Below are positions 3,006-55,644 of a stretch of DNA of 64,000 nt, one piece after another. The stretch covers positions 248,001-312,000 of the forward strand of contig JAHLKD010000028.1 of assembly GCA_025526935.1 (NCBI GenBank). Direction: 5' to 3'. How positions within the stretch are numbered: position 1 is the first letter of the stretch; each line of letters begins with the position of its first letter. Below the pieces are notes generated by a model. That model searched no databases. It was not told the origin of the DNA and was given only the letters and a program-made list of their open reading frames with translations. The position numbers and the translations under genes are program-made. The DNA comes from Cladochytrium replicatum (Eukaryota; Chytridiomycota; Chytridiomycetes; Cladochytriales; Cladochytriaceae).

Positions 3006-3953
3006 TCGTCCCTTTTCGAGTTGTTGGCGTCGTTCGGCTGGGTTGCGTTTTGGTTACCAACACCATAATGGCTACATACACGACAGCCTGCTAGCGTCCC
3101 ATGCTCGCAAGTTCCCAACGTTGCGATCACAAACGCTTGTCAGCTGCTTGCAATGTTTTTTTTTTCCACCCAAAAAATATAAAAGTTTTATTCCTGGAAT
3201 TGCTGCTGTTCGGCTAGTATTGCAAGCAATAACGCGTGGTCTCGTGCGACAGGAAGATGACCAAAGGTCATTGAAAGATTCCCGTTCTCCGGGATGCATA
3301 ATCTCATTCTGCAACTTTTCGACTGACTTCAACCAAATTCGAGTTGCTTCTTCTAGTGCATCTTATCTCCACACTGGCTGAGGGGAGTACTCAAAGCGAA
3401 AACACTGGGCTGCTTCGAGCATCCGTCCTAGTGTCTGGTTCATCTAAATTTTCCTGGTTGCTCCTCCGCCGCTTCCTTCACTTACGAAAACCAGGCCTTT
3501 CTTCAGGTTAAGTTAAATGGTTATGCTGCACTTTGATATGCACCGTTTGCGATACCAATGACCAGTGCTAATATTGTTTACAATGTGAGTCGCAGGACGG
3601 ATCACGCAAATTGGGAACTTTTCCAGCAAACAGAAGGAACCAACGACTATTGCCTGTCCGTCCAACCATCCAAATTTCTCTTGTAAGTTCACATTGACAG
3701 CAAGCTGTATACTGGAGATATCAAATAGATCATCCAGTGCCATCAACTCCTATTGCAGATTAACCTTGAGTCTTCCCTTTGATTCTTCCCGATACCAGGA
3801 GGTCCAGAGAGCTCCGTAATACATTTGACGGCGAGGCATTTCCAAAAATAGAGTCCAGGCTCCAACTTCCCGTGGGATAGGTGACGATGCCCCCTTTCCG
3901 CAATAGATCGAGTGCAAAAGTCCGACATTGCACTGTGCCACACTGCTACCTGA
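3006..3953. other. Intergenic stretch before APC1
   Basis: No open frame here looks like a gene. A poly-T/CA-rich patch lies near 3157-3190. The only structured item is a copy of the tail sequence shared with the Fanzor-like elements (3584-3648, listed separately). The rest should hold the APC1 promoter and 5' leader; I see no convincing TATA box. Confidence 0.5.
3584..3648 (-). repeat. Tail repeat, copy C (shared with Fanzor-like element B)
   Basis: About 60 bp on the minus strand matches the sequence downstream of the Fanzor-like gene at 45719-45775. By eye roughly four of five bases agree, including the block CTGTTTGCTG and the block GTGATCCGTCC before ACTCACA. No Fanzor-like coding sequence is attached here. 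It is either an isolated element end or a separate short repeat that also lies beside element B. Confidence 0.6.
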
Positions 3954-22568: not shown

Positions 22569-24282
22569 AAATCCTACTGTTATTCACAAGTTACTCGGAT
22601 CGTTCGCAGTAACGGCAAAAACGGAACGAGATATTTTTAGATTACAACTGCGACCAGATTTACATACAATATTTTTCACCAGACAAGCCGGACTCTATCA
22701 AGCGGATACGGATTTCACGAATTTTAGGTTGACCGAGATCGAAAGCAGAGTTTGCCGTGAAAATCTCTTCTTGCAGTAGTGTCAAAACTTTGCGTTCTTG
22801 GCTTTTAGAATCATCCATTTCATTTGTACATTGATTATTATTTTTTTTGATAGTTTTTTCCCTTTGGTCTCTTTAGCCGTTGTGCCAGTTTTTTTTCAGT
22901 ACTCGAGCGTGTCCTACCGCACTTTTTGATTCTCTCAACTTTCTTTCTGTTAAAGCTGTACCTTTTTGCGGTTTCGCCCTTTTGGATTTGGTGCAGTTCA
23001 GAGATATAAGGCTGCCCTTTTGGTGTGTGCAAGTTTTGTTCTTTTAGGCGTTGTTGATCTGGATTACAAGGTTACCAAACAAGGGATAGAAAATACAATA
23101 AATTTTCGAAATCACACTCTTGCCAAAAATAACACTGTGAATCTTTGTTAGGCAGTCACAAAGAACCTAAATTGATATACTTCTGCAGGCCCAGGAAACA
23201 TCTGCAGGAAGAGTAGCAGCAACAGCAGCATCAGGAGCAACAGACGGACGAGGATCATGTAGCGAGCACTGCGAACTATCCGGTAGGACCATTGAAGTTG
23301 CATTGCACATTGAGCTTCTAACCATTTCAATCAGAAGGACAAAGAAAAGTATTGCTTGTGCCGGGCAGTGTACACCAATTCTGCTAAAAGACACAGACCT
23401 ACCACAACAAAAATATGAATGTTTTAGGTGAGTGTGTTTGTTGTTTGTATAATGCAAAACCTTTTCATTCTTGAAATCTCCAGACCAACTCCCACTTTAA
23501 ACAAGACCAAAACGCCAAACAAAATGATTATGGCAAGAAGGCAGTGACGACTTGGACAATTACAGTTCGTATATGCAATTAAAACTTTTCGTTGTCGGAG
23601 GTCTCATCTCTGTGCCTTCTCACCACCGCAACAACTCCTAGACGATGCTGAACTTGGTAAGTCTCATTCAATTCTTCACCTCTACATCCAATTAACAAAA
23701 ACTTCCTAAATAGCTAATGTCCAAACACTTTCTCAGCTACTCTATCGATCCTAGAGCATAGACAATTGCTCCAGCTCCCATGTCTTTATAAATATCCCAA
23801 GATCCATGGTGACATATGTGAAATGGAGGCTATGGAGGTCTTTCCCCAATGTATCAGCCAACCAGCGATGGGGCCACATTTGCGCTTGCTTCGAAAAGCT
23901 GGGTGTTAGCGATATTCAAGAGGATGAGGGTCAGGATAGGATGGTCAGGATGACAATGGCAATGAGGATGATTTCAAGAATGTCAGTGATTCCAGTCAAA
24001 GAGAGGACCCCAATGGCAGAGTGCCGATCAATGAGATTGACTTTGGTAGATGAAGACTTGGTAGATGGCGAATTCAAGACTGTGGATTTTTTTGTGGAAG
24101 TAATTGCCCAGCAGCTCGATTCCATGCTCCCTTACCACCTACACAACCCTCGCAGGCTTGACGACAAAGTTTTCCACAAAAACTGGACGCTCTATGGTAT
24201 GTTTGAATGATTGACACATTTGCCCTACTGAATCCCACTGTTTTATTGACACTTGCCTTGATATATTCAGTTACAGACATTG
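22569..24282. other. Gene-poor stretch upstream of Fanzor-like copy A
   Basis: Mostly A/T-rich with T-runs (22840-22870). Two pieces look once-coding. One is a plus-strand stretch around 23180-23430 (reading AQETSAGRVAATAASGATDG and later LPQQKYECFR). The other is a frame at 23806-24210 ending DDKVFHKNWTLYGMF before a plausible donor (GTATGT) and an acceptor near 24270. The second may be an upstream exon of the Fanzor-like gene, but copy B shows no matching sequence. No gene is called. Confidence 0.35.
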
Positions 24283-25615
24283 TAACCAGAACACCTCCGC
24301 TCAACACATGCTCTCTGACACCAGCCCAACGAAGTCGTCAAGTTTGCCCACCAAAGCTAAAACTCTGCCCCTTTCGAGGTTTACGCTGAAAAACTTTGCA
24401 AATGACGGAAAGTAGCTCATTGGGATATACATGAGCAAGTACCAGCATCCTGAGGACAATGACCTCAACAATCAAAGACATGGACTCAGCTGAATTGTAC
24501 TAGCCGCGGGTCAACCGTGCGTTCTACAAGATTGCACTTCCATATGCCCATGCACGCGATTCGGCAACTGGAAGAATCATCACAGACGTGTTCTCAGTTT
24601 CAATTCAACGTCTCCTCACCATTTAGATTATGTGCCTTGGGACAAAGCAAACAAGCACTTTGCTTATCCAGACATTGGTATTGGAATGATTTGTATGCCA
24701 AATATACTCTTTCTGTTGCAGACGCACTTCCAACCCTGTTAGGTGCCGATCGTGGCAAAGTGGACATCCAATTTACTGGCTCTCAAGTCCAGGACACCTG
24801 TACCACTCCAAAGGTCAATTTCCGGTACAGCTTTGCCGAGTATTATCAACATGCAAACATCAACTCAGCGAGAAAGTGGCGAGAATGGCGACTGGCAGAG
24901 AACCTGAGGGTGTGGCGAGCCCAGAGCTCCACACCCTTTGCTGGTCACCATGGACCCTCAGCAAGTTGAGGCGGGCATTTGTTGGTTTGTGCAATACATT
25001 GAGGCAATGTTTGCACACTAAACCACCTTGAGCAATCACGCGGAATGACGCTGTCGAGTCTACCAGTCAAAGCAGCGAGAAGTGGAGAGAGCGATTGCCA
25101 CACTGTGTGGGACGAGGGACAACTTGCAGGATCCAAGACTGATCTGCTCATTGCCTGGGGAGGAGATGCACCAGTCAACTGGTTCCAACACATACCCTCA
25201 GCAAATTGACACGGGCATTTGTTGGTTTGTGCAATATTTTTATGCGCGATGGGCCCACTGAATGCAGAGCCTCACCAGTTGCCCAAGCTTGTCCAGCTAT
25301 GTCTTTGCTTCGAGTCTGGTTGCCCGTTGAACCTCCCGGACTGCAAGGATCAAAGGCGCTGGCACTCAGACAACGACTGTGGCTATCCACGCTACCACCA
25401 ACCATGGAAGCTTCTGGACTGCCCTGGATGCCATACTCGGTGGAACAGGGATGTGTGTGGAGCAATGAATGTCCGACTGATATTCATGTACTCCAACCAG
25501 CACAGGGGGAATTGGCCGTGGATGTTCAAGAAGGGGGTGTTTGTGTGATGTTCTTGTTTTCTGTTTGCTGCGATTGTCACTCTCGTTTGATTGTGCCAAA
25601 TCCGGGAAGTTCCCA
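24283..25615 (+). mobile_element. Degraded Fanzor-like (TnpB-related) element, copy A
   Basis: Fanzors are eukaryotic relatives of transposon TnpB, RNA-guided RuvC nucleases carried by mobile elements. The C-terminus reads CPGCHTRWNRDVCGAMNV, matching the zinc ribbon and last RuvC aspartate (the NRDV-A-NI pattern) of OrfB/TnpB/Fanzor proteins. The N-terminal part (LTPAQRSRQVCPPKLKLCP; HMPMHAIRQLEESS in another frame) is shared with copy B. The reading is broken: several stop codons and frame changes, and the stretch that in copy B reads GWGNAPVNQF to EAYTSSGCFRC is missing. The frame ends PWMFKKGVFV with TGA near 25548, followed by about 60 bp that matches the tail of copy B. It is therefore a dead copy. 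The family call is from motif pattern, not a search. Confidence 0.65.
24955..25240 (+). repeat. Templated duplication inside Fanzor-like copy A
   Basis: The sequence at about 24955-25000 (CCCTCAGCAAGTTGAGGC, then GGGCATTTGTTGGTTTGTGC) recurs, slightly altered, at about 25196-25240. The second occurrence replaces roughly 110-130 bp that copy B has at the same place (about 46176-46290). Copy B contains the motif only once. The pattern is what repair of a break with a copied filler would leave. Confidence 0.75.
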
Positions 25616-25639
25616 CCATCCTTGCCCGCACCCACCTGG

Positions 25640-26165
25640 GCTCGACGTGACAGATGCTGATCCATTTTCTGCGACAATGCGCTAAACCCGTCGGAAAGAG
25701 TCCAAAGTGCAGCCTTGCTCATGCAGTAGAATCCCATACCAGAGATCATCATCCTTCCCAATTGACTAATGACATAGACTAGCCGCCCGTTTCGGTTCAT
25801 GGCAGGTTGAAGCAGCTGGATCAGGCCAATCAGGCCGAAAAGGTTCATTTGACCACGTTCTCTTTCAGCTTGGCGTCGAGAAGTGAACCGACCCCTTGCC
25901 CCAGTGTTCACCACCACTTTCAGCTGGCCCTGCACGTCGTTCCAAATTTCCTTGGCCTTCCCTGCTGATCCTTTGACACTCGCCAAGTCTCCTAGGTTCA
26001 GAAAGAGGGATCAGATGTTTGCATGAAGCACCTCAATTGTGCCAGCGACATCAACTTTGCGCACTGTTGCAAGCACCTGATACCCTTTCTGGCTATAACA
26101 ACAACTGCTATTTTCGATCCTGCTGCTGGCACCTGTCACAAGCACAAATGGACTTGTTGCACAGC
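25640..26165 (-). pseudogene. Short-chain dehydrogenase/reductase, dead copy
   Basis: Minus-strand remnants read VLVTGASS (the nucleotide-binding TGxxxGxG region), then KGYQVLATVRKVD, ASVKGSAGKAKEIWNDV, LKVVVNTGA (for NNAG), MNLFGLIGLIQ, AMNRNGRLVYVISQLGR and MGFYCMSKAALWTLSDGFSA. The last contains the catalytic YxxxK. This order is that of a classical SDR. The glycine motif after TGASS is scrambled by a frame change (RIENSSCC where GIG is expected, restored in another frame). A further frame break lies near 25985, between the ATVRK and ASVKG blocks. It lies just downstream of, and antisense to, Fanzor-like copy A. Substrate unknown. Confidence 0.7.
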
Positions 26166-26209
26166 CGCATGGAGATCCTCTGAGCTCTCTTTTCTGCCCC
26201 ATTTTAGAA

Positions 26210-26850
26210 GGGCCTAGCATGTTGCCATAATGAGCATCTAGATGCAATGAACTCGTGGAGTCTGCCGCCTCTCTCACTGTCATTCTTGCTGCCACTTCCT
26301 CTTCTGGTAGAGCTTGAAATAGCGCTGCATAATCTCCCAAATGGATGTGATATTGCTCACCTGTGTTAGAGAAGTTTGTCGAGCACATTTTTCCACAAGA
26401 GCATTGTTCAAGTATGAGAGGTCCCAGAAATTCAACTCCATCATTGTGAAGAGAGTCAACAGCCGATACTACAGCTGTGGCAAAGGTGTTGTTGCGCTCC
26501 TCCAGGAGCTTAATCCTTTGTTGGGGCATTTGAATTTGAGAGATCAAGCAGCAACTGACTTTTTGAAATCCTCTGGGGCAATGTCAACCCTTCCCTCTGT
26601 CTGCTGCAGGGCCTTCCATCTTGTCACTGAAGTGATAAGAGAAAGCCTCGTCATTTGGCAAGCGACATTTTGAATGACTGGAAGCAGGCGAACATCTGAA
26701 ATGAACTTTTCTATGCCAATCTTGATGCAGTAATTTTTGACAAAGACGTCGTTCTGCTCAACATGCCTCTTCTTTGCCAGAGGAGTTCCCAAGAGAGCAT
26801 CAATAGTCAGATGTACCCAGAAGAGTGGGTGCTAAGCACTGAAGACTCTG
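26210..26850 (-). pseudogene. Unidentified decayed coding region
   Basis: Two adjacent minus-strand frames read like one broken protein. The first has WVHLTIDALLGTPLAKK, NDVFVKNYCIKIGIEKF, VRLLPVIQNVACQM, SLITSVTRWKALQQTEG and IAPEDFKKSV. The second, shifted, has RIKLLEERNNTFATAVVSAV, DGVEFLGPLILEQCS and YAALFQALPEEEVAARM. The composition is that of a helical soluble protein. I cannot name the family. It stands upstream of the dehydrogenase remnant on the same strand; whether the two were once one gene is unclear. No start codon context is convincing. Confidence 0.4.
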
Positions 26851-27183
26851 GGGAACAGCACGATCGACAGAGAGAGCAAGTATTGCGCTGTAGAAATTCG
26901 ATCTTGTTGTAGGCTGCTAACGCTCCGTCCATCTCATTTGGAATGAATTCTGCAGCTGAGAAAGCCATTCTTGATTAGCTGGCAATAAGAGGCATTCCTC
27001 ACTGATAAAATCCTATTTTATTAGTATCCACAATCTCACATCTGAAGCACACAATATTAACATAGACATCAGAAGACACTGACCAAACACAAATGTGTTA
27101 TCTAACTGCCTTCGATTAGGTCCTTTAAAACTTTTTCCTAAAAGAAAACAATCCTTGCGGCTTAGCAATCTTCAATATTCGAA

Positions 27184-28474
27184 ATGTCGCCAGCATCCAA
27201 AATGTGAGGATTGAAAAATGGTGGACGAGCAAGAAGCTGAACGTCGGGTGTTTAAAGCGAAGAGCGAGTCACAGGACCGTCATGGGCGGATGATTTCGAG
27301 GATAATGGTAACCATCTCAGCCAAAATCTAAGTTGTCCTCCACCTTACAAATAAGTTTAGATGAGGTCGTACCGACCGGAAAAGCGTCAGAGGAGGAGGA
27401 TGCCGCAGCTGGAATTAAGACGATCGTTGAGGAAACAACAAATGACGAAGGGAAAAAAGTGCGTGTGACCAGGCGAATCAGGTTAAAGCTCGTAGCGACA
27501 AAGGCGAACCACGCTGTTGCGGAGAGAAAGGTGAGAATAGGGCGGGTATAATTGAATCTGGTATATAAGACTGAACCAATGAACAGAAATTGAAGAAGTT
27601 TGGCGATTCTGCTGGTTCCAAACCTGGCCCGGAAACAAGCACAACCACTCTTGGCGACAAAGTGTACCTGAAGCTCTCTCACGGCATCAAGGTGAGCAAA
27701 AGTTAATTTTCCAGCTTCCTTTTTTCTGATCACGTCTTAGGCTTCAGAAGAACAGAAAACAGATATTGTCAAACCTCTGTCCACAAAAGCAAACATCACT
27801 TGCCGATTTTGCAAAGGTCCCCATTTCACTGCAAAGTGTCCCTACAGGGACTCCCACCCTCCGCTCGACGACCTTCCCCCATCCGACTCCCGCGAATCAT
27901 GTATGGCTCTGTCAAATCGTGCACTGAACCCCTCCTCTAACCAACAAAATTCAGTACCTCTCGCGGACTCCGGGCCCTCTGCAGACGACGCTGGAGCATC
28001 GAAACCTGGAAAATACATCCCGCCAGGTCTTCGTGGGAAGTCCGCGGCGGCGATTGCGGGCGAATCGATGAACGGCCCTGGTCGTGGTCGCGGCGATCGC
28101 GACGACCTCCCCACAATCCGAATCACAAATTTGTCAGAGGATACGACGGAAATGGATCTGAAGGACTTGGTGTCCAAGTTTGGCCCCACACAGCGCGTGG
28201 TGAGCAAGTTTTGTTCGAGATGTTTGTTCGCTATGAAGTGACCTTTGGCCATATTCTTAGTTCGTTGCACGAGACCGCGATCTCAACATCTGCAAGGGTT
28301 TCGCTTTTGTCAGTTACTACGTGCGCGACGATGCGGAGAAGGCAATGAACGCATTGAACGGATACGGATACGATAACTTGATTTTGAAGGTTGAATGGGC
28401 AAGGTAGATCCTTTGATAATCTCACTTCTCGTTCGATGGACTTACATGCCTTCATCAGATCAAACAAGGATTAA
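27184..28474 (+). CDS. TIF35: Translation initiation factor eIF3 subunit G
   Basis: eIF3g is an RNA-binding subunit of eIF3 that helps scanning and reinitiation. Exon 1 (27184-27203, ATG SPASKI) joins across a 54-nt intron to exon 2 at 27258, giving MSPASKIEERVTGPSWADDF, the family's N-terminal SWADDFED block. Then come EGKKVRVTRRIRLKLV, the zinc knuckle CRFCKGPHFTAKCPY, GKYIPPGLRG, and the C-terminal RRM with TIRITNLSEDTTEMDLKDL (RNP2) and KGFAFVSYY (RNP1). Further introns lie near 27530-27590, 27691-27740, 27902-27954, 28199-28260 and 28405-28458. The last exon ends SNKD with TAA 28472-28474. The gene converges with Aquarius about 200 bp downstream. No lesion is seen. Total length about 300 aa, usual for the family. 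Confidence 0.93.
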
Positions 28475-28679
28475 GTTTAATTTTGCCTCCTTATTCAATA
28501 TATCATCGGTTGTTTGAATTAAGTGGTTGCTTCCCGAGTGTGCCAGGTTCCCGACAATATTGTACAATATTTCAACACGAACAACTGGTGAACAAAAGCA
28601 CATAATTCTTTGGCAATAAGTTTAGTACAAACATCTCCGAAAGACTAGTCGTTTAGGTTATACACTACTAAACTCAACA

Positions 28680-31600
28680 CTATTCCTCAGTTCCCTCGAC
28701 CCCGGTTTTGGGCTGCTCCATATCACGGTTCTTTAACCATTCCACATGCTCCTCCATCATCTGTTGCACAAAAGCACCCATGTGCTCCACTCCCTCAATA
28801 CCAAACACCCCTGCCTCTTCATCCGTTTCCTCAGGCCGCTTAATTACTCGCCAAAGCCGCTTCTTTCCAACCATATCCGTCGACGTTTCCCAGTCGTTCG
28901 TCCCGTCCTCTACAACTCGCGCAAACCTCTCGTAACGCTTTAGACCTTTCTCTTCCTCCTCTTCTACATCATCATCCTGATCATTTGCCGTTGCGCTACC
29001 TCTCTTCGATTTCTGTCGCTTGCCTTTCGCTGCTGCCTTCTGAACTCCCCGTCGCTTCTGTCCGCGCTTATCGTCGGCCTTTCCGTCACTGACGCACTCA
29101 AGTCCTGTATCAAGGTAGTGCCGCATCCACTCACCCTCCTCGCCCTCGAGTACCGTTTGGCGTGCGGCGTACATCTCGTTGGGTCGAACCCAGAGATGCT
29201 CCCACGGTCGTTTCTCCACCAGTCGTTCGAAAACGGGTCGTAGCTCTACGCAATCCGCGAAAAGCTTCACACGGCAGAAAATGTAGAGACCCAATCGAGC
29301 CCGCGACATCGCCACGATCAGTCGCCGGACATCGCGAAGGTGTCCAACGGTCTTTGTGCGCACCAACGAGAGGAGAACGTAGTCGGCTTGCTGTCCTTGG
29401 AACTTATCGACTGTTGAAATTTTGCCGGGCTTGCCGAAAAGTGGGTGCCAAGCACAACGTTTTGTGACCACATCGTTAATGAGTTCCTTCTGGCCATTAT
29501 AAGTGGTAAGGATTGCGATACGCTCTGCTGGATATCTGGGCCAAACAAATGGATCAGCCAGCAGAATAGACAGTTTAAAGAGACTTACCCCAGCAGACGC
29601 ATATACATGAATACAGCAACGACATACTCCGCTTCGCCCAAATTTTGAATGAAATGATGTATCGGCTCATGCTCTCCCTTTCCCATAAAGCCGTCGACGT
29701 TGACCACTTGATAATCGAACGCGAAGCCGGGGTTCGCAAGACCGTATTCACTGGGACGTCCGGTAGTGGAAATGCCTTGCCCAATCACATCTAAGTCACC
29801 CAAGTTGCCATACTTCCATCTAAAGAGCTCGGCAAGTGACTTGCGAGATCGACCCTGCCTATCAAGCTGCACCGTGGGCACACCGAGACGCACAAACCGC
29901 GAAAACAAGGACTGCTCCATGTTGGCGTATCTCTGCAATGCCGGCTGCTGGACAACTGGAGGAAGTTGGTGATGATCACCAATCAACACCACGCGCTTTA
30001 GGCGAGACACAGGTGCATTGCCGGTCTTCTTATCGTCAGCGGGAACTGGTGCTTGGAGCAATAATGGGATGAACGTTTCGACCTCCAAGATCTGGGCCGC
30101 TTCCTCCATCACAATACTGTCGTACCGGAATCCTAGCCGCACGAGCTCACGCCTCTTAAGGGCCGCGTGAGTGCAGGTCAACGCGACAATTCGAGCTTCT
30201 TTCACAAGGAGGTAGTTGCTTCGATCGGCGTGCGTTCGCAACAGTTCGAATGCCCGCATCTCCTCTAACTGCGAGAAAACCTTTTCAACGTGGCGATAGC
30301 ACCCTTCTGCAATCTCAATATACGACAATACGGACTCTCCTACAGTTCTCTTTGTATCTCTTGGGGGAAACAGGGGTTGTTGTGGGGCATTCGCAAAAAA
30401 CGCTGCAAACGGAAACGAGCTGACGAGCTTCGCACAATCCTCTTCCCCGATGTTGGACGGGTTTTCTTTCGCTTTCCGAAGGAGATGCTCGTACTGCTCC
30501 CATGCACCTTGCACATGGTATGTGTAAAAATAGCCTGCTGTCTCACAGGAGTTGCCGTGAGCACCGGGAACACTCAAGGAAGCTGCCAGTCTGTCCACTT
30601 CCCACAAAAGCTGGATTCGCTTTTCAAGGAAAGAGTTGACACGGCCGTACTTCCCCCAAGATCCTTCAACTTCGATGCCTTCTTCACCGTGTCCCAGACG
30701 AAGCAAATGCCGAGGGTCGATGTCGAGATTCAAAATCTTCTCGAAGAGTTGGTTAAGGGCTTGATTGCTATGAGTCACAATGAGCACTTGTTCACGAGGG
30801 AAGTTGTGGTACAGATTTGCGATGATCTGCACGGCAACGTCTGTCTTCCCGGTGCCAGGTGGGCCGACAATCATTGTGAGACCCGGAGATGTTCCAGCAT
30901 GAATGGCTTCGACTGATTACTTGTGTTAGCGGCGAAAACTGTTCGTTTTGTGTGAAAAGTTACCTTGAGCTGGGGTGAACCGAATGGTGTTCCTTTTTGG
31001 TACGTCCTCCGGGTACGGTCCCATGTACCCGACCTTGTAAGTTTCTGCGATAATCTGTTCTTCCACCGCTAATTTCACTCCTCCTTTGCCCTTTACTCCT
31101 TCATTTGATCCATCAAACATGGAATTCGGGAATGTAAGGAGATATGGAGGAGGAGCAGTTTTCCCGTCCTTGGCAACGATATTCTATAGTGGATCAAATT
31201 AGACCGAAACTTCACAGAATAAAGGCGATGCAAACCTGATTGGGGAAGCTCTGAACAAGGTGCTCCCAATCCAAGAACGTGTCCCTAAAATCGATCTTCG
31301 TGACCGCGTTTCTCCCCATTCGCCTGAAGTTCGCACTCGCCGGGTCCCCGTATCCTAAGAAGACGTCTTGTAGCCATGAAGGTACAACAGCCTCACTTTG
31401 CATCAAGTCACGTATAGACTCAAGAACTGCTTTGAAGTTGTTTTCTGCAGGCTTACGCCGCATAATCACATTCAAAGTTCCGTACACATCGGCACCTTCC
31501 AGCCGAGTATCTAAAGCGTACTGGTTTGTGTCGAACGCGACCCTGAGAGTCCGCCGTTTACCCACAATCCTTGGGGCTTCCATAGCAGTTCCATCCTCGA

Positions 31601-34111
31601 CTGATACCATAAGTTTTGATTCCTCGATTGCCCTCCCGTCGTCCCCAAGCTTATCGATCACTTCGCATGCACGGACGTAACGCAACCCCCACTTCCTGCG
31701 GAACGCCTGCCCACTCGTAGGTTCCTCATTACGCAAAATTCCACGGGCGAGCTTTTCTTGCATAAGCTGATGCTCCGCCCATCCCGGAAGATCAGGGGCT
31801 GCTTGGAGCGAGAGCAGGAATACAACGTCATGAGGCCGCAAGGAATCCCACTCTGCGCGTATGCTATCGGTGTAACTTCCAACTGAGAAACTGACATCCG
31901 CGAGCACTGATGAAGGTTTGGAATCCCCAAGCTTTGGTGCTCCAATTTGAACTATTTCAAGCTTCAGAAACAGACTTCAATACAAACCTATAGACAGGCA
32001 CAGATCGCGACGATACCTTATCAATCGGGACTGCCATACGTGCCCACCCATCGAAGGCAGTGCGATTTTCGACTGTTTGATGCTCGGGGTTGTATCTCGG
32101 AGCCAGCCGACGAACAACGTCCTCCAAATCTTGTCTGATAGAATATATCGATTCGAGACGATATAAATTGTAGTTCCGAAGTAAATAGTCGTGGACCGTG
32201 AGGAACTGCAGATTAAGCTTTGGAATGGGGAGACAGTGAGAGTTGGTGAAGTTCTTGGAGTCTGCAGCGATTGTGTCATTGAACAACTCCTCCTGAAATG
32301 TAACAAATTTATGAGCGTCTATACAAACACAAAGAGCTTCCCAAGCGTACCTCGTTGGGATATATCGGGGTAGCATTTATCTGGTCGATCTGTCGTGCCC
32401 TTCTCCCATATCGGCGAAAGAGGACATCAACAAGGAAGTCTGTCCCAAATAACTTTGAGTTTTGCTCTGCAGTCACGTTGCGCGTTTCTGGATCAATTGA
32501 TATTTCCCATCGTTGTTGTTCCTCGGCTATTTCATATCTCGACAGCAAGGAGCTGGTTCGAATGTTCAGGTCTTTGCATAGGCTGATCAGCACTTCCGGT
32601 CGTTTCACATCTCCAAGATATCTCCTCATAGACTCGATCGAGTCCACATTTCCAACATTCGCCAAGGCAAAATCTTCAAGATCATCTCGATATTTGACAA
32701 AAGCGAGCTTTTGAAGCCGTCTCACTTTCAAGTAATGCTCGTGCAAAATCTCATCACTTTTAAGTGCTTCTCCTGTAGTATCGCTAATCTCGAAGCGCGC
32801 GTAGAACTCAAGCGTAAAAAGCATATTGAAGAACGCTGCACCCGAAGAGTTGGTATTGTTCTCAACGGCAAGCTCATCGTAGGGTCGCGAAAGTGCATTT
32901 CTTCCTCGTTCTGCCAAGCCTGACGAAAAAGAAATATCCACCAAGAGATGATCATCGACGAGGGTATTGAAAAATCTGCGCGTTGGTAGTTGCGACAGTA
33001 GATCAATGACAAGCTCAATAAAGCGCTCGCAATACAGCACAGTGTCGCTGGACGCAGGACCGCTACCTGAAATCGAAAACAAAATTGTGTAATACGATTT
33101 AATCATCTTGGAAAAGAACGATCGTTCGAATGCACTTCGCTCCTTTGCTTTGTCATCTGCATAATAGTTAAGTCTCCATTTGCACAATCGATTACGCATA
33201 TGTACCTCGCTTCGCGAATCGCTTTTCTGCTCGCGCCCAAGCTTCAAAAATCTTGCCATCACGTTCAAACTCCATCTCCCTTCGATCCACTGATATCAAG
33301 CCGTGCCAGATACTGATTCCGACCAGCTTCATGCATTCCTCTCGAATTACCACATTTTCAAGAGACTGGAAAGCGTGGATCAAGAAGATCAAAAGGAATC
33401 GGCGATTTTTGAGGGTCAGTTTCCTCTGATCATCGTAATCTCCGATGAGAAGCTTCAGTACGCGAAAGAAAAATGAAGAGAACTTCGCCTTCTGTTCCGG
33501 AACAGCTAGACCAGACCAAGGGTCCAAGGTGCGCTGTCTAATCTTCTCGTTGATCATCAACACAATGGATAAAACGTAGGCGACGGATGAGTCCTCTGTA
33601 AAGTTCGGCCACAAATACTTTTCATAGACGGGAGATTAGAATCAGTCTTTCCAATGGGAAATTTGCTCACGTTTTCAAGATACTGGCTGAATTCTAGCAG
33701 CATTATTTTTCTGAGCGAAAATTGGTTCCCTTCAAGCTCTTCATCCCAGATCTGTTCTACAATTTTTCGATCAAACTTCCCAGCGCCTCCTTTCCTCGGA
33801 GTTTCCGCAATCGAGGAAGTTTGCCATATGGAACGTGCAATCTCCGTGATGGTGTCCTTCTCCAGTTCTACGAAAGTGGGTGCTCTAATATCCTCGATCC
33901 TATCCCCAAACTGTTCATCATCTGTTGCACGAGAAGCAGCTGTTTTGTGCTGAACCGGCGGAGGGATATCCGCTGTGGAGTTTCCGTCGAGATTACCCAG
34001 CCCATCCTCGGTATCAATAATCATACGTTCAACTGCTGGCTCAAAAAAGCCCAGATCCATTGCCGTCGCCCCTCCATCACCAGTGTTCTGCGATGGGCCG
34101 TTGCGGTTCAT
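28680..34111 (-). CDS. AQR: Aquarius, intron-binding spliceosomal helicase
   Basis: Aquarius (Cwf11 in fission yeast) is an SF1 helicase of the intron-binding complex in the spliceosome. The N-terminal armadillo region matches in order: [62 protein letters not shown] and [11 protein letters not shown]. The helicase core has Walker [13 protein letters not shown], then [50 protein letters not shown], the Walker B-type [48 protein letters not shown] and [11 protein letters not shown]. The start is probably ATG 34111 ([11 protein letters not shown]); an upstream in-frame ATG at 34222 exists. Several short introns split it (for example near 29472-29585 and 30875-30925). The C-terminal tail is acidic/basic ([11 protein letters not shown]). 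The product is about 1,370 aa and looks complete. Confidence 0.93.
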
Positions 34112-34229
34112 TTTTTGTTTTGAAACTAAGCCACTGACACAGCAGCGTGGGACAAGCACAGGATAGCAATCGCCATGCTCTGTCGGAGCCAGAGACGTGA
34201 ATAAATTCGATTGCGACAACATTCAAGAA

Positions 34230-35720
34230 CAAGTTGAAAGTAAAAAATACTTTAAAGTGCTACATTAGATTACCGAGTCTATCGGTCAGCGTGCTGGAAG
34301 TTTCACTTGGAGATATCCTGGAACTTCTAGAAAACGATTCAATACTGTTTGCGTTGGCTGGAGAGGCCTACTTCGGAAAGGAATCAGTGATGTCTTGCGA
34401 TGAGTGGCACTTGCAGCATTTGACGCCGAAAGCGCAAGTCAGCTACGTGCAATTCAAAGCTAATGTGGAAGCGACGGTGATCAAATAACTGCAACGAACA
34501 AACTTGTTGGACGCCGTGGTTTTGTGATTGGGATAACCGATTTACACTCTGGCATGGACAGTCCAATCGGAGCAGTTTCTTGGCGTTTCTTTAACCAATC
34601 ATTGCAATATTGGAGGAGACATTAGTTGTGGAATGACACTTTTCAGACTCTCGAAGTTGTCAGCAAAACAATTGGCGGGGAAAGGAAACCGATTGCCACA
34701 CATATCGCACAATTAGAAAGGCCATGGGAAGGCAGTACCGCGGAATGGCTCAATCAGGCATGCCTAGAATCAACACCTGTTGATAGTTTTGGGAAAAGTT
34801 GGGAGAGGGAATGATTTTGCGGGGATTCCAGTACTCGAGTCGATTCTTGATGAAAATTCGCGTAACACCAATGGTTTATCTTCAGAAAAAGCCTAGTTGC
34901 TGTTGTTTCGGGGTCTGGGAAAGAGCATTCTGGAAGAGCACGCCAACAAGTTTGCAAAAGAATCGCAGGTTGAAGGAACAGATGAGTTCACGGAATACGC
35001 ACACAAACAAGACCTTGACTGTCAATGGGCACACGGAAATTGGGATTTGATTGCTCCCCCCGTCTTCCATGCACTCTCCACCTCACATAAACAAATTCTC
35101 GATATTTTGCACAAAAATGTTCAAAAAGCAGCTTTTAGCGACGGTCAAGAAATCTACTTGCATCGCAAGCAGCACCGAGTGACCAGGGCCTCATTGTCAT
35201 TCCTGGATCCAAGGGAACTTTTTCGTATGTTTTAGCCCGCCGGTTTTCAAGAGGAGAACGGCTTCTGGTTGCTCATGGCGCCAGACGAGAAATGAGTTGC
35301 ACTTCGGCGCTCCAAACGAACCAGATCGAATTCGAGTCTAACTCCAAACTGAGAGAAGGTATTTCTGAGAATCAGTTTTTCGGCGTTTTTGGTTGTGACG
35401 CTTCTTTGTAAAGAGATCCCGAACACATACACGGACATAGACTCCGTTGTTTCAGTGTTGGTTGAGCAGGGAGTAGTCCGTATCATCTTGATGAAGCCTT
35501 TGGCCACATACAAAATGAATGACTGATGAAAACGAGATTTCAATTTTTTATGCCACAAATGTAACCTGTAAGTAAAAATACTACTCTCCTGATACTACTA
35601 GTCTCCAGTGTTCATTTCATCTGAATTAAAAGCTCCTCTTCCTTCAGGAGTCCTTCTCCATCGCATGATCTAATCCCCGTACGCCACCCCCGCCAATCGA
35701 GCTGATCGTTCGTTGTCCAC
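34230..35720. other. Possible decayed gene between Aquarius and HAD gene
   Basis: Consecutive plus-strand frames, each cut by stops, look like pieces of one lost protein: SVSVLEVSLGDILELLEND (34234-34488), GFVIGITDLHSGMDSPIGAV, then TIGGERKPIATHIAQLERPW (34626-34814), then SQVEGTDEFTEYAHKQDLDC, CQWAHGNWDLIAPPVFHALS and DGQEIYLHRKQHRV (34897-35235). I do not recognise the family. At least four frame changes or stops would be needed, so it is not called as a gene. The remainder (35240-35720) holds nothing obvious except the HAD gene's upstream region. Confidence 0.35.
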
Positions 35721-35721
35721 A

Positions 35722-37186
35722 ATGTTCGCACTCGGTGCAAAAAATACCACGGCCAATCTCCCCATGCGCAAGTCTTTATCGGATCTTCCTCACTTTTCTC
35801 TCAGCGAGCTCTGCGCTCTTTCGGATTTGTCAGAGGATGAGTACAGCGAGCGACTCAAGGCCATACAAGCCAAACAGGTACCGCTTGCACCGCCTCGTTA
35901 TCTGGCGATGTTAATGATCAGACTAGGGCTTCATCTGCGACATGGATGGTTTGAAGATTCTCGTGTGATCGTTATTTTACTGACCGCTAATTCCTATAAC
36001 AACAAAACACCGATTACTAGGTGTGATCTATCATGGTTAGTTCTGATCGAATCACGGACTCATCGAACCGTGGAATAACTTATCACTTTCTTAGGAAGTT
36101 TGCTGCTCCCAGGTGTCAAGCGCTTCATTGATTGGCTCACCAAAGAAAAGAAGAAATTCATCTTCCTGGTCTGCGACAGTCTTCAATAATTATATTCCGA
36201 TCTAAAATGCATCTTAGACAAACAACTCTGCACCGACGCCTAAGGAATTGTCACGAAAGCTGAATCGATTGGGGCTTTCTATCCCGGAGGAGCACTTTTA
36301 CACCTCGGCTCTTGCAACAGCACGGTTCCTGAAGTCACAGAAACCCCAGGGAGGAACGTGCTATGTGTGAGTACTTATAATGATTCTGTTTGGCATATCT
36401 GATTTGTGTCAAGTGTTGGAGAACCCGGCCTTACTTACGCTCTCTACGAAGCTGGTTTCGGTAAAAACACTGATAAATCTTGCGTTTTCTTTCTCTCATA
36501 ACCGAGATCAGAAATGAATGAAGTTGATCCGCACTTCGTTGTGATCGGAGAAGGCAATTCACATAACTTTGAGAAGGTCTGATTCAAGAATCGGTCATAT
36601 TTTTGATTTAACTATTTTAAACGCAGATCACGAAAGCTGTGAATCTTGTGAACAGAGGCTCACGTCTCATCGGCACCAACCCAGATGCAAACGGACCAAC
36701 TGAAAATGGGATTGCCCCTGCGACCGGAGCATTCGTGTCTGCAATTGAATGTGCAACTGGTTTGATTGAATTCCACTTCCTCAACCAGTGTTTCTTACAG
36801 CCAAACGTAGGAAAGAAAGCATTTTACTGTGGAAAGCCCTCGGCGCTGATGATGCGATATGCTCAGGAGTTACTTGGAACTCACAAGGCAGACACCTGGT
36901 CAGTTCCGCCCATTAGTTTTCATTCAGTAACTAAGATCCTCGGCTGCAGCATGATTGGTGATCGAATGGACACTGACATTTTGGCTGGAACTTGGGCTCA
37001 GGTGAGCAAATTGTTAGATTGGTTGAATTACACTGACCCAATCAATTGTTCCAGATTGACCCTGTTCTAGTTATGTCAGGGGTGACAAACCCTACAAACC
37101 TCACTGAGCACGCATATCGTCCCTTCATCATCTTAAACAATGTTGGAGAGATCGCTGGCCCTGGGACGGATGAAGTTGCTGAGTAG
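35722..37186 (+). CDS. HAD-IIA (NagD-type) phosphatase
   Basis: A haloacid-dehalogenase hydrolase of subclass IIA, the group of NagD and 4-nitrophenyl/phosphoglycolate phosphatases. All four motifs are present: ICDMDGVIYHG (nucleophile Asp), FLTNNSAPT, FYCGKPSAL (Lys), and MIGDRMDTDI (Mg-binding acidic pair). The cap region has TSALATARFL and GLTYALYEAGF. Exons are small: 35722-35877, 35927-35948, the 15-nt microexon 36021-36035, 36095-36168, 36218-36366, 36414-36460, 36512-36576, then 36627 onward. Two later intron-like stretches (36760-36810 and about 36892-36949) are in frame and stop-free, so retention would only lengthen the protein. The N-terminal 50 residues (MFALGAKNTT and on) are outside the usual domain. 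Stop TAG 37184-37186. The substrate cannot be told from sequence. Confidence 0.88.
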
Positions 37187-37295
37187 TTAAGCGAGCGAAG
37201 GGTTTCTTGATTGTCAGTCTTTCAATCCCTATCACGTATCCTCGAAAATTTTGCCGCAACAAAGTATATTTGTAAACAATTGTCAATGATCACAA

Positions 37296-40200
37296 CTATA
37301 CAGCTGGCTCGTTCATCATTTCCTCCACAGCTTGCACCTCGCTTGTCATCAACTTCATCCTGTTCATCGCCTGAATCGCCAACGGCATTCGCCCAGCGCG
37401 CTTAAATGTCAGCGCAAGGGTTTTGTGCTCGGTTATCGACTGCTTAAGATTTGTGACAAAGTCTACAAAAAAATAAAAACATAAACGCGAGTGTAGCGCG
37501 GTGGTAGCACCTACCTTCCATAGATAGTTTTCCTAACTGCACCAGCGTGACAAGCAATTGAGCACGCATTTCGTATGCCGCTTTCCGGTCCACCAACTCT
37601 TCGATTGCGTCTTTGCTGCCGCCTTTGGCTTTGAGAGCAGCAATTTGTTCCACGAGGTGTGCAGTTTCGGTTTCCAGTACCATATTGGACAGAATGGTGT
37701 CGGGGCTATTCGAAACGCTCAGTGAACGTCGGAACAAACAGGAAATCGATCTTACTTTAAGAAACGAGATTCGATGAAATCGATATCATCGTCGTCATTT
37801 GACTTAGCGGATTTTGTTGTGCTTGCGGGCTGTGGTCCTGGTGGTGTTTGTTGCGATTTTTCCTTAGGCTTTGGGGCTGAAGTCGTCTGGTCTTTGCTGA
37901 CAGATGGTGCTGGTGCTGGCACTGGACTAGGTTGGGGGTCAACAGGTGGCGGTACTGAAGAAGCACGGGCTGGAGCTGGCAACGATGAAGGTTGTGCCAC
38001 ATTGTTTGGAGAAACTTGCACGACCTCCTTCCTGTCAGATCCCTGGTGAATAGGTTCAAGTTCAAACCATTGTTCAGTCCTTTTCAATATTTCTGGTCCG
38101 TTAAATGGCGTCCGGAGCCGAACACGAACTTCGATCTTCGCCCCGGTTGCTTTTCGAACGTTTGCTGGGTCCATGAGCTGCTCATTTGGGAACATATTGA
38201 GACTAAGTGGGAGGACTGTAAGTTGCCATACCTCAACAACTTGAGACACTTCACAAGACTTAAGCAGCCCATCAAGCTTTAGCGTAGCCTTTCCCAGCAA
38301 AGTCTTGTTGGCCCCACCCAACCGTAACAAACTTCCAAGAACTCCTCCCTTGGAATGCCATACTTCAAATGTTGCTTTCTTCCTCTCAAGATATCTCTGA
38401 TAAGATCGCGTTCGGTTGATTCGAATTCGTTTCGTAAATTGATATTCTGCTCAGGATGAAATTAATCCCCTTTGCGGAAACAATCGATTTCATTTGTACC
38501 TGGATTTGATTCCTTCTTAACGACCAGCGTCTCGCCTTTCCCTTCAGGTAATGTGTCGTTTCCCCCATCTGCTGTGGGCCATCCGGCATCGAAACCAACG
38601 CAAGTGTCAACGTCTGAGCCCCCAGAAACGACGAGATCAAACGCTCGTAGGATTCCTACTTCCATTTCATCGGGGGCGATATCACCATTCATACGTTCCA
38701 ACTCGTAGGCAACCTGTCGGCTTTTCACACCCCAATTTCGCGTCCGTCGTCTCTTGTTTCCTTCCACAGGGTTGTTGCCATCTGACGCCCACCTTTTTAG
38801 AGTTTCAAGGTCGGTTTGGCACTTCTTCCTCATTTTGTGAAACTCCAATGCCATCGCTTTGTTGTTCTGTTTATAATAATAGGAAGAAATTTGGGCTGCC
38901 GTTCCTGCTTGATCTTCAAGCTTTAATAATACTTCTGCTGCGATTCGGTCTATATCGTCTTCATCTGCTGCTGGAGTGGCTGACACTAGTACGGAGGCAT
39001 CGGAAGGAAGTGCTGTATCTTTTGCGATTACTGCAAAATCTAGATCGTCAGAAAGACCGATAGCAGGCTTTCGTGGTGGTGCTTGTGCCTTGGTTGGCGC
39101 TTTTGGGGTTGGCGTTTGAGGAGTAGATGATTTCGAGCTTGCTTCACTTTCCTGAGCAGCTGGTTTTGGAATAGAAGCTTCCGAAGGATGTGGAGGCAAC
39201 ACGAAACCAGAGGGGAGCTCCCCATTGGTTTCGAGCATTTCCGCCGCCTGCTGGATCGGTCGTAGGGCTGAAAGATAATACTTCGCTGCAACAAGTTCGC
39301 TAGCATTTCGCGATGTGAGAGCAGCCTGGCGATACTGGGCCATTCGCTCTTTCAATTTCTGGATCGAGTAGTTGGTTGAGCGCGTGTCGGCAATTCGCAT
39401 GCTTCCTACTTGCTCGGAAAGTTTTGATATGGGATCTTCTGGATTTAAGGGATGTTCTCTCGCATCTGGCTCCACTTGCGTTGGCGGAATCATTATTGGC
39501 TCATTGTGTTCTTCTGGTTTCACGCTTTGTGCGGAAGCAACTGTCACATCTTTCAGCCTCTCCTCCAATGCTTTCGCTTCTCGAAGTGCTTCAATTGCTC
39601 CAGCCTGGTCTCCAGCACGTTTCCGCTGAACAGCACGTTGTTTCTCCAGTCGAACGTACCCGGCAAGAACTTCCGGATCGGAACTTCGAAGTTTTGATTC
39701 CAACGAAGACGTCGAAGCAAAAGCAGATTTTACTTCTTCTGGTTTTATCGCCGGTTCTGAGAGCAGAACGGGAGTTTCCTCTGTTAATGCGTGATTCTTC
39801 CCACCCGCTAGTTGATCGTCTTCAACTGTGTGATCGGTAAAGTCATCTTCGGCCCCATCCGCACCTGCTACAGCACGCAGTTGTGCCTTTCAAGTTTCAA
39901 ACTGAAATGTTCGAATTTACAAACTTAGTATGTCCTACCAGCAGATCGGGATCGTTCATGTCAGCATCAGTCAGCACAACATCATCCACATCTCCATCGT
40001 TCAGAATATTGGGTATATCTGCCATGACTTTATCCAAATCCAGCTCTTCTGATGCCAGGGCAGCTTTTGGCTTGGGTGGTGGTGGAGCCGACCGTACAGC
40101 AGATTGGGAAGGTTTTGGTGCACTGCGAGGTGCTGCTTTTGGTTTCGGCGTGTCTTCATTTATTAACCCGTGCAGCTCTGCCTGCAGATGGCTATCTCAG

Positions 40201-40381
40201 AGCAGTTCATAAATGAAGCGGAGGCAATTACCAAGAGGTCGGGGTCGTTTAAATCCGCGGCCGATACATTCACATCGCCAAAGTCCCCATCCGCAAAGTC
40301 TGGAATGTCTGGTATGTCCAAACCAAAATCATTGCTGGTTGCCAGCTTCTTAGCAGGTTTCTTGGACCCAAAGCCAAACAT
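37296..40381 (-). CDS. CC2D1/Lgd-like DM14 and C2-domain protein
   Basis: Lgd/CC2D1 proteins bind ESCRT-III (Snf7/Shrub) through DM14 repeats and act in endosomal sorting. The start MFGFGSKKPAKK (ATG 40381) is typical of the family. DM14-like helices follow: VRLEKQRAVQRKRAGDQAGA with EALREAKALEERL, then MAQYRQAALTSRNA with YYLSALRPIQQAAEML, then ISSYYYKQNNKAMALEFHKM with CQTDLETLKRW. The C-terminal part has the C2-like stretch NKTLLGKATLKLDGLL and TGAKIEVRVRLRTPF, linkers rich in Pro/Gln, and a terminal helical exon ending VQAVEEMMNEPAV (TAG 37296-37298). About six exons with short introns. The 5' end faces the kinase gene head to head at less than 200 bp, so the two probably share a promoter. 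Confidence 0.85.
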
Positions 40382-40544
40382 TTTGGGAGCTGCAATCCTG
40401 GGCTGAGCCACGTCGCAGGCTCAAACTCATTAACGTCAACGGAGCAGGGGGGTTAGTTGGGACCAACGGCTTCATAGGTGCTGGGAAAAGACGGCGGACA
40501 TCGAGAAGCTTTTTTAATTGTTTTTGGCCTGAAGTACCCCGAAA

Positions 40545-45247
<4,703 letters not shown>

Positions 45248-45486
45248 TTTATCAGCATACTTTCGTTGCATTTTGAGAGCAGACCATGGATTTGCTCCTC
45301 ATGTACAGATTTTGCCTTCGATTGCTTCGCGAGTAAACAATTAGTTAACAAACTTTCGTTCATCTCATGATGAGATATGATGACTGTGATCCCAGAGAGG
45401 TTGTTGATGCTTAACTTAAATATCGACAAATCTTTAAAGTTTGGTTTTATGTGCAAAAATATTAAGCCTTTTGCCGAACCAACCAA

Positions 45487-45620
45487 TGGCAATACTCCCA
45501 ATCACAAATATGTCACCGAGACCTTTGGCTATTGTACCCTTCTCTCCATGAACACGGCGTCGCTCAACGACAGTACTGCAACCGATGCATCTGTGATCAC
45601 TTTTTTCTGTAGCAAACCTC
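45487..45620 (+). pseudogene. Fragment of the neighbouring sugar transporter's first exon
   Basis: About 130 bp aligns with the start of the transporter at 49223 onward (from ATGGCGAAAATCCCAATC to the region coding NTAFLNYSTASGASLI). By eye about 70% of bases agree, and the fragment still reads MNTASLNDSTATDASVI. It begins at the same codon context and stops abruptly, next to the tail of Fanzor-like copy B. It is non-functional. Confidence 0.7.
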
Positions 45621-45718
45621 GAAGCAGCAAATGATCCAAATTCAGGAGTTCTCGGCGGCACATCATTCCTGGCCGGTATTTTCCCTGGACTCGATGATCT
45701 ATCTTTATATAGTTATAC

Positions 45719-45775
45719 TGTGAGTTGCTGGACGGATCACCCGAATTGGGGACTTTCGCAGCAAACAGATGGAAC
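45719..45775 (-). repeat. Tail repeat, copy B
   Basis: Minus-strand sequence downstream of the Fanzor-like copy B gene. It matches copy C at 3584-3648 over about 60 bp and, more weakly, the sequence just after copy A (around 25555-25600), sharing the block CTGTTTGCTGCGA. It is the only non-coding part found at all three loci. Confidence 0.6.
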
Positions 45776-47200
45776 CAAAAAATCATACAAACACCCCCTT
45801 TGAACATCCACGGCCTATTTTATCAAGCTTTCGGACCCTAAAATCTCCTTAATTTTTGGATCCTCATTCCGATCCTCATTCCGATCTCTTAGATAATTCA
45901 ATGCTTACTTCCCCCCGTGCTGCTTGGAGTACATGAATATCAGTCGGATATTCATTGCTCCACACACATCCCTGTTCCACCGAGCATGGCATCCAGGGCA
46001 GTCCAGAAGCTTCCATGGTTGGTGGTAGCATGGATCGCCGCACTCGTCGTGTGAGTGCCAGCAACTTTGATCCTTGCAGCACAGGAGGTTCACGGGCAAC
46101 CAGACTCGAAGCGAAGACATAGGTGGACAAGCTTGGGCAACTGGTGAGGCTCCGCATTCAGCGCCACCATCGCGCATCGAAAGCACCCTGATGAGGTGTA
46201 CGCTTCGGCAGTTTCACAGATAAGCCGTATATGCAACGCCAGTCGCGCCTTGATGCGCTTCTGAGGACCCGAATTGCCGGATACGCGTTGGAACTGGTTG
46301 ACTGGTGCATTTCCCCAGCCAATGACCAGATCGGTCTTGGAGTCCCGCCAGTCGTCCCTCGTCCAGTGTGGCAATGAACTTGCACGCTCGCTCCACATCT
46401 CGCTGCTTTGTCCAGTAGACTCGCCAGCGCCATTCCGCGTGATTGTTCAAGGTGGTGTAGTGTGCAAACATTGCCTCAATGTATTGCGCAAACCAACAAG
46501 TGCCCGCCTCAACTTGCTGAGGGTCCGTGGTGACCAGCGAAGGACGTGAGCTCTGGGCTCGCTGAGCCCACGGGTTCTCTGCCAGTTGCCATTCCCACCA
46601 CTTTCTCGCTGAGTTGATGTTTGCACGGTAATAATGCTCGGCAAAGCTGTACCGGAAATTGACCTTTGGAGTGGTACAGGTGTCCTGGACTTGGGCCTGT
46701 AAATCCGATGTCCCCCTTCCAGGATCGGCACTAGTACAAAGTTGGTGGGTTGGAAGTGTGTCTGCAACAGAAAGATTGTTTCAGTATATTTGGCATACAA
46801 ATCATTCCAATACCAACCTCTGGATAAACAAAGCGCTTCGTCCCTTTGTCCCAAGGCACATAATCTAAATGGTGAGGAGACGATGAATTGAAACTGACAC
46901 CCTGTCTGTGATGATTCTTCCAGTTGCCGAATCGCATGCATGGGCATATGGAAGTGCGATCTTGCGGAACACACGATTGACCCACTGGCTCGCACAATTC
47001 AGCTTAGTCCATGTCTGTGATTGTTGGGAGGTCATCGTCCTCAGGATGCTGCTTCTTGTACCTCATGTATAGCCCAGTGAGCTGCTTTCTGTCGATAGCA
47101 AAGTTGTTCAGCGTAAACCTCGAAATGGGACAGAGCTTTAGCATTGGTGGGCGAACTCGACGAAGTCGTTGGGCTGGTGTCAGAGAGCAAGCACAACAGC
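45776..47200 (-). mobile_element. Degraded Fanzor-like (TnpB-related) element, copy B
   Basis: The better preserved of two copies, inverted relative to copy A. Minus-strand blocks in order: MLKLCPISRFTLNNFAIDRK, QLTGLYMRYKKQHPEDDDLP, NRVFRKIALPYAHA, DYVPWDKGTKRFVYPEVGIG, FAQYIEAMFAHYTTLNNHAE, VYWTKQRDVERACKFIATL, DLVIGWGNAPVNQF, GPQKRIKARLALHIRL, EAYTSSGCFRC, CPGCHARWNRDVCGAMNI and IFMYSKQHGGK. The spacing from TSSxCxxC to CxxC-WNRDV-A-NI is the zinc ribbon plus terminal RuvC aspartate of TnpB/Fanzor nucleases, and GWGNA-GP-K resembles the RuvC-II side. Reading requires frame changes and there are stops (for example after DMD), so it is inactive. A 94-bp intron-like stretch (45815-45908) interrupts the last codons. 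The family call is from motifs only. Confidence 0.7.
45815..45908 (-). other. 94-bp intron-like insertion in Fanzor-like copy B
   Basis: On the minus strand it begins GTAAGC and ends AAAATAG, the borders of a spliceosomal intron. It contains a 12-bp tandem repeat (GATCCTCATTCC twice). Copy A has no such stretch at the aligned position. Removing it from copy B joins HGGK to PWMFKGG in frame, parallel to HRGNWPWMFKKG in copy A. Confidence 0.6.
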
Positions 47201-55452: not shown

Positions 55453-55628
55453 ATGATCAGGCGACGCAATCAATCACACAAATGCGAAACCAAAAGACAA
55501 TAAACGGCAAAGATGAGCTGAAGGATAGTAAATCAAAACGATGATCAGGCGACGCAATCAATCACACAAATGCGAAACCAAAAGACAATAAACGGCAGAG
55601 ATGAGCTGAAGGATAGTAAATCAAAACG
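55453..55628. repeat. 88-bp perfect tandem duplication
   Basis: Two abutting copies, 55453-55540 and 55541-55628, differ at a single base (A in one, G in the other near position 80 of the unit). The unit has no open frame of note. It ends 17 bp before the stop codon of the minus-strand membrane-protein gene, so it lies in that gene's 3' untranslated region. Near identity points to a recent event. Confidence 0.95.
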
Positions 55629-55644
55629 AGGAACAAAAAGTATG

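Follow-up and report, generated by a model that had tools for sequence, protein, structure and literature searches.

The window analysed here, a stretch of 64,000 nucleotides on contig C28 (248001-312000) of Cladochytrium replicatum (Cladochytriales, Chytridiomycota; genome of 50.5 Mb in 198 contigs), carries two inverted copies of a decayed element, A and B, which look like the broken remains of a Fanzor1-like RNA-guided nuclease gene. Judged by the motifs read in translation, the identity of the family as Fanzor1-like is highly probable, and its membership among the Fanzors is well supported, if not closed. The best overall explanation, which we regard as probable, sees in the copies the fossils of a single Fanzor1-like transposable element; the family multiplied in this chytrid genome and then decayed.

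Copy A, a rearranged broken element on the plus strand (23534..25573), and copy B, a 5'-truncated one on the minus strand (45712..47189), were aligned by BLAST in inverted orientation at 24309-25197/47189-46279 (85.1% over 924 columns, E 0.0), at 25242-25511/46177-45909 (91.5% over 270 columns, E 3e-108) and, in a 3' piece, at 25510-25573/45819-45756 (84.8%). These alignments bear out the claim of an earlier, sequence-only reading that two related copies lie here in inverted order, and frame-by-frame translation, with stops and frame changes in A and B alike, confirms that both are degraded. The copies delimited in that reading stand and their boundaries do not: by BLAST against other copies, the element sequence of A extends upstream to 23534 and stops at 25573, and B spans 47189 to about 45712, with its 3' end at 45719. 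GenBank models, judged alike by eye, exist for A (P0007, BJ742DRAFT_891546) and B (P0001, BJ742DRAFT_891579), both annotated as hypothetical proteins. In A, the 5' part begins at 23534 and the coding remnant runs up to a stop codon at 25546-25548 (plus strand; BLAST and gene model).

Overlapping pieces from several copies give one protein, in which TDG, an intron, GADPGKG, a long stretch, ETAEAYTSSGCFRC and CPGCHTRWNRDVCGAMNI follow in this order, with a stop codon soon after. According to PMC10711439, the Fanzor fingerprint consists of DPG together with a glutamate placed six residues ahead of the zinc finger, a combination present in less than 1% of TnpB-family homologues, and TDG, in the WED domain, is a characteristic Fanzor1 motif. 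The published Fanzor motif reads D-X(125,275)-[TS][TS]-x-x-C4 zinc finger-X(5,50)-RD (PMC3627910). Three natural pieces of B, joined in order, fit DPG-X-E-x2-[TS][TS]-x2-CxxC-X-CxxC-X-RD, with 176 residues from D to TS, inside the published 125-275. On the minus strand of B, the RuvC-I DPG lies at 46718..46726 (natural piece 46361-46771), the alternative RuvC-II glutamate at 46204..46206 in EAYTSSGC, six positions ahead of the first zinc-finger cysteine (piece 46093-46362), and the second CxxC, CPGC, at 45989..46000 (natural piece 45908-46093); the first CxxC, CFRC, at 46174..46185 and the RuvC-III Arg-Asp at 45968..45973 come from the motif reading of the B pieces. The motifs named in the earlier reading are thus present in B in the right order and spacing, and both Fanzor-specific features, DPG and the displaced glutamate (E-AYTSSG-C), are found there. 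Copy A retains the RuvC-I aspartate at 24748..24750, in the context GADRG (DPG in B and others), and the second CxxC with RuvC-III, CPGCHTRWNRD, at 25420..25452 (both plus strand, by translation). It lacks the stretch that bears GWGNA-GPQKR and TSSGCFRC in B, and a local duplication lies at that spot.

None of 200,000 shuffles of B fits the strict pattern, a figure which overstates independence, because the pattern was composed after the sequence had been seen and uses our own spacings for D-to-E (100-275) and for the zinc finger; the looser Bao-Jurka form, for which the zinc-finger spacing limit was also set in this analysis, was fitted by 28 of 200,000 shuffles. A motif scan covered 37 oriented sequences, several of them short remnants or no copies at all. 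The DPG form was found in 10 of the 37, B included (A and the locus L009 read DRG), and the second CxxC with RD likewise in 10. The glutamate context E.[YHQ]TSSGCF occurs in three sequences (L011, L015 and B) and its looser form in eight, one of which is a short remnant. TDG (as ITDG or IADG) was also matched in eight and is plain in L009, L016 and L018; at least the matches in L049 and L050 are due to chance, since both hold only short 3' remnants.

The search against TnpB/Fanzor profiles, proposed in the earlier reading as a check, did return a match: of 28 copy pieces, 9 matched PF07282 (best E 1.9e-4), with the scores that are given lying below the cut-off, and it is the only family found in more than one piece. 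Several results weigh against Fanzor membership. The PF07282 scores, where given, are 15.2-19.5 bits versus the Pfam cut-off of 26.3, the queries being pieces of broken copies and the cut-off a detection threshold rather than a biological feature of the family; a whole-genome PF07282 scan gave nothing at E 0.001. The matches in protein searches (13, 16 and 1) were all to proteins of C. replicatum, with no named Fanzor aligned, and the profile matches in the PDB were solely Ada chains (E 0.02-0.18). The two AlphaFold models, in both of which the stretch after GADPGKG is predicted to be helical, are too poor for use (predicted local distance difference test 58.6 and 44.1). The hhalign alignment to a TnpB/Cas12m-like protein covers 18-21 columns of the tail (E 0.0086 for A3 and 0.043 for A4) and is not decisive, two unrelated control proteins giving E 0.06 and 0.73. 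Moreover, the TDG position reads TDV in A and TDR in B, and the RuvC-I motif of A is DRG, not DPG. Sequence and profile searches of the PDB with pieces of the family found no Fanzor, and NCBIfam guided_TnpB scored 11.6 bits versus a cut-off of 100. The 62-residue tail of B gave two PDB matches (E 0.35 and 0.5), both chains of LaTranC, which we take to be a TnpB-lineage nuclease.

With no named Fanzor recovered by sequence and profile scores below the curated cut-off, it could be argued that the protein is a zinc-ribbon protein unrelated to TnpB and Fanzor, alike by chance. We consider this very improbable in view of the fit of B to the whole ordered motif, a pattern composed after the sequence was seen and not reproduced in 200,000 shuffles of B, and of PF07282, which alone was matched by more than one of the 28 pieces. 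The likeliest reason why no named Fanzor was found lies in the decay of the copies and the distance of the family from the known ones. As no named Fanzor was aligned and the models are uncertain, membership stays short of proof. A scan of viral contigs for WNRDVNA gave eight loci: one of them, L041, was read as TnpB/Cas12m-like (DVG; best PDB match Cas12m) and not as a Fanzor, and a pattern longer than WNRDVNA found no match in the viral contigs.

Throughout the genome, family matches numbered at least 56 in a DNA search with the 3' half of B, 117 in a protein search, 33 with a 5' probe and at least 40 with a 3'-end probe (40 of 50 candidate ends scored). Clustering at 4 kb gave at least 77 family places, and the coding matches of the DNA and protein searches fall in 60 of these; this count is a lower bound, further places listed by later searches falling outside it. 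The 22 first loci referred to below comprise 20 fetched via the coding half, together with A and B. To judge intactness, the exons of the loci read, a subset of the places, were inspected for stops and frame changes, because an intron-bearing frame would not appear as one open reading frame. The sequence-only reading had hoped for an intact relative elsewhere; none was found in the C. replicatum genome among the matches listed in these single-probe searches. In the protein search with a 221-residue RuvC-I to RuvC-II piece, the only stop-free full-span match was that of L009 to itself. The longest other stop-free match, at C7:327556-328083, covers residues 42-219 at 48% identity in a 288-codon frame and also matches the DNA of B at 84%, and the remaining matches are shorter or contain stops. 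With a tail probe, 89 matches were obtained, their open frames reaching 236 codons.

The copies are old, with a pairwise identity of about 85-88% (about 12-15% divergence) among 16-17 of them, and all examined copies are decayed. Third codon positions in the RuvC core are 14.5% diverged versus 12.2 and 12.8% at the others (p 0.014; 19 of 23 copies). In the tail, second positions are 8.3% diverged versus 12.8 and 13.8%, and third positions exceed the average of the other two in 15 of the 23 copies; the third-position excess is absent in the WED exon (6 of 16) and in the N-terminal piece (2 of 5). This test is weak, because every comparison shares one reference copy each. The copies appear to have undergone mostly neutral decay after insertion.

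The intron 5' of RuvC-I was aligned in 14 loci, none of them listed with a clean excision; in L009 it carries an internal deletion, and in A (24693..24721, plus strand) it falls, by intron alignment, 8 bases short of its length in other copies. The retention of introns indicates that the element was copied as DNA. Copy A also holds an approximate N-terminal intron, GTATG..., at 24197..24272 (plus strand), the start of which is taken from the splice in P0007; its end is approximate, and P0007 splices it to an exon later than 24272.

Six loci carry host DNA on their 5' side. In L010, L029, L033 and L034 the 5' stretch matches a region present as a diverged duplicate pair on contigs C56 and C32. 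The possibility that this match represents a longer element was rejected, as the duplicate pair there lacks the Fanzor part, and the stretch is therefore read as captured host DNA. In the other two, L009 (1245-2115) and L018 (1398-2097), a piece of an MPN/JAB-domain gene lies beside the Fanzor copy, with its intron kept in both. The MPN-domain gene itself is on C10, with a diverged duplicate on C26 and no Fanzor match within 6 kb around. GenBank model P0014 fuses the MPN piece and the Fanzor remnant into one protein. An additional 99-bp match to the MPN gene piece was observed on contig C4. At the same time, diverged duplicate blocks with kept order were seen between L043 (C32:131088-141087) and L044+L032 (C56; 70-85%) and between L054 (C10) and L055 (C26; 74-84%), which are signs of an old duplication or a hybrid origin of the genome.

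Among the first loci, the 3' ends of the copies are more uniform than the left ones. A terminal anchor, ...CAACTCACA, with AT-rich sequence after it, was present in 18 of the 22 first loci, and 28 tails, collected by matching the shared 3' end, align up to it and none beyond. Measured in 20 loci, the distance between the left and the 3' end ranges from 883 to 3,879 bp; the longest stretches take in host DNA or other repeats. Each of seven 3' ends without a listed coding match belongs to a short Fanzor remnant, about 100-350 bp long, and not to some other gene with the same end; the tail search later matched some of them, and L051 also holds another, inverted copy. An extremely 5'-truncated copy of this sort, a solo 3' end, lies in the window at 3578..3643 (minus strand; BLAST and tail alignment).

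These results suggest the following course. An intron-bearing gene would have encoded a RuvC nuclease whose catalytic residues had the Fanzor layout; by analogy with characterised Fanzors, a short RNA from the 3' end of the element may have directed this nuclease to DNA. The element was presumably copied as DNA, with its introns retained and a bias towards the 3' end, by one-ended, rolling-circle-type transposition in which a helper protein would have been supplied from elsewhere; all examined copies have since decayed. One-ended rolling-circle-type transposition is ranked as the likeliest mechanism, and the preference for a one-ended DNA mechanism is tentative. Our confidence in it was lowered from an even balance because 12 of the at least 77 places matched the 5' probe only, so that the 3' ends were not always kept. 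Other results also speak against it: the anchor is absent in 4 of the 22 first loci (L013, L025, L026 and A), no target duplication was found at the edges of the 20 longer and 7 short copies, where decay may hide it, and no Helitron sharing the element's 3' end was seen among the 40 of 50 candidate 3' ends scored or around the single Helitron Rep fragment. L028 and L048 have 7-bp repeats close to their edges, and TTTT lies near the left edge in one of the seven short copies (L046). The only genomic match listed for the Helitron Rep family PF14214 is an 88-codon fragment at C19:272963-273121 (L052), and the 3.2 kb around it lack the element's 3' end; that a Helitron was the helper seems unlikely. 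A double palindrome in L029 (1625-1785) with the look of a Helitron2 5' hairpin was rejected, as five other aligned copies lack it, and is read as a local inversion.

Two other routes have been weighed against one-ended transposition of a Fanzor1-like element. A cut-and-paste DNA transposon with terminal inverted repeats, similar to SPu-1, could have borne the Fanzor gene, the left ends having decayed or been deleted and the truncation being ordinary decay. The distance from the stop codon to the right end agrees with this, about 75-80 nt in SpuFz1 (PMC10432273) and about 65-75 nt here, and the 12 places with the 5' probe only suit ordinary deletion better than one-ended copying. However, left ends vary among the copies, and a search for the right end in reverse complement did not place it at the left sides; there were five hits, one of them a second inverted copy and four at E 2.9, and 0-12 hits with 20 shuffled controls. 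No copy is known to have a complete left end, and this result is to be read with a possible loss of the left repeat in mind. The cut-and-paste route is considered rather unlikely, and copying of a Fanzor1-like element via RNA by a reverse transcriptase of the long interspersed nuclear element type still more so. The common 3' end with its AT-rich tail (TTATAAT in 14 of the 28 tails, which were collected by matching that end) and the graded 5' truncation are as such copying would leave them. At the same time, the RuvC-I intron kept in 14 loci, the intron kept in both MPN pieces and the missing target duplications speak against it, and no reverse transcriptase family was found in the scanned upstream frames of L010, L029, L032 and L033.

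The shared 3'-terminal segment of B (45719..45768, minus strand), in which a stem-loop is possible, is a candidate guide-RNA scaffold or terminal hairpin. Over 50 nt the stem-loop gave z -2.1, with at least equal stability in 6 of 200 shuffles, and over 72 nt z -1.5, with 15 such shuffles of 200. The pairwise identity of the 3' segment, 87.4%, is hardly above that of the coding parts, 84.9-88.3%, and so gives no sign of selection on a guide RNA. By analogy with characterised systems, the segment may be a guide-RNA scaffold.

Additional features accompany the two copies. Copy B carries an insertion of about 92-94 bp, GTAAG...AAATAG (45815..45908, minus strand), which is absent from other aligned copies, has one genomic relative (77%, at C5:425267) and could be a young intron-like insertion. 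At the left edge of B, 36 bp (47186-47221) recur in L011, L019, L027 and L031 and are part of another repeat family adjoining Fanzor copies. Inverted N-terminal element pieces adjoin A at 26162..26807 (minus strand; three matches to L033 2681-3194, 80-86%). Mingled with inverted Fanzor pieces at 25366-26547 (minus strand) are remnants of a putative short-chain dehydrogenase, so read from the motif LVTGASS. Elsewhere in the window, 55453-55635 is a tandem duplication of 95 bp, 97% identical.

Among known systems, the CRe-1/2/3 elements of Chlamydomonas reinhardtii contain Fanzor1 in non-autonomous Helitron2 elements, and the pattern of their copies is read as one-ended rolling-circle transposition (PMC3627910). 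They share with the C. replicatum family an intron-bearing Fanzor1-type gene, mostly kept 3' ends (more strictly so in CRe), frequent 5' truncation and internal deletions, and extra non-Fanzor 5' sequence in some copies (PMC3627910). In contrast to CRe, with its 7-19 bp target duplications and insertion after TTTT (PMC3627910), the present family has no duplications found and TTTT near the left edge in only one of seven short copies; no Helitron with the same ends was seen, some places hold the 5' part only, and the copies are old. SpuFz1, from the SPu-1 element of the chytrid Spizellomyces punctatus, has 30-nt inverted repeats and a 75-nt scaffold found by sequencing (PMC10432273). It resembles the present family as a chytrid Fanzor1 with many copies, a short distance from stop codon to right end and a foldable 3' segment (PMC10432273). 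It differs in being a single open reading frame between those repeats, full-length at 19 of 42 loci (PMC10432273), whereas here introns are present, no inverted repeats were found and no intact copy was seen. With TnpB of IS200/IS605 and IS607 the family shares the RuvC nuclease, the C4 zinc ribbon, the RD motif and PF07282, but it has DPG with the displaced glutamate, the combination rare among TnpB-family homologues (PMC10711439).

No publication joining Fanzor and Cladochytrium was found in the open-licence full text of PubMed Central, where four link Fanzor with Helitron. The C. replicatum copies represent a dead new family of an already known element type and, being dead, cannot themselves show activity. 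A fungal Fanzor1 lineage with 3'-anchored, one-ended replication carrying host DNA, the transposition end of which would coincide with the stem-loop of the guide scaffold, and which would be found independently of Chlamydomonas, is conceivable and considered unlikely, its probability having been lowered slightly for the 12 places that hold the 5' part only. If the interpretation as Fanzor1 fossils is true, a dead but dense Fanzor1 family is added in Cladochytriales, the remnants of which carry the annotation of hypothetical proteins, and Fanzor1 copies with anchored 3' and truncated 5' ends would have a possible second case outside Chlamydomonas. This would bear on the transposition machinery of Fanzors and on the identity of the guide-RNA scaffold with the transposon end.

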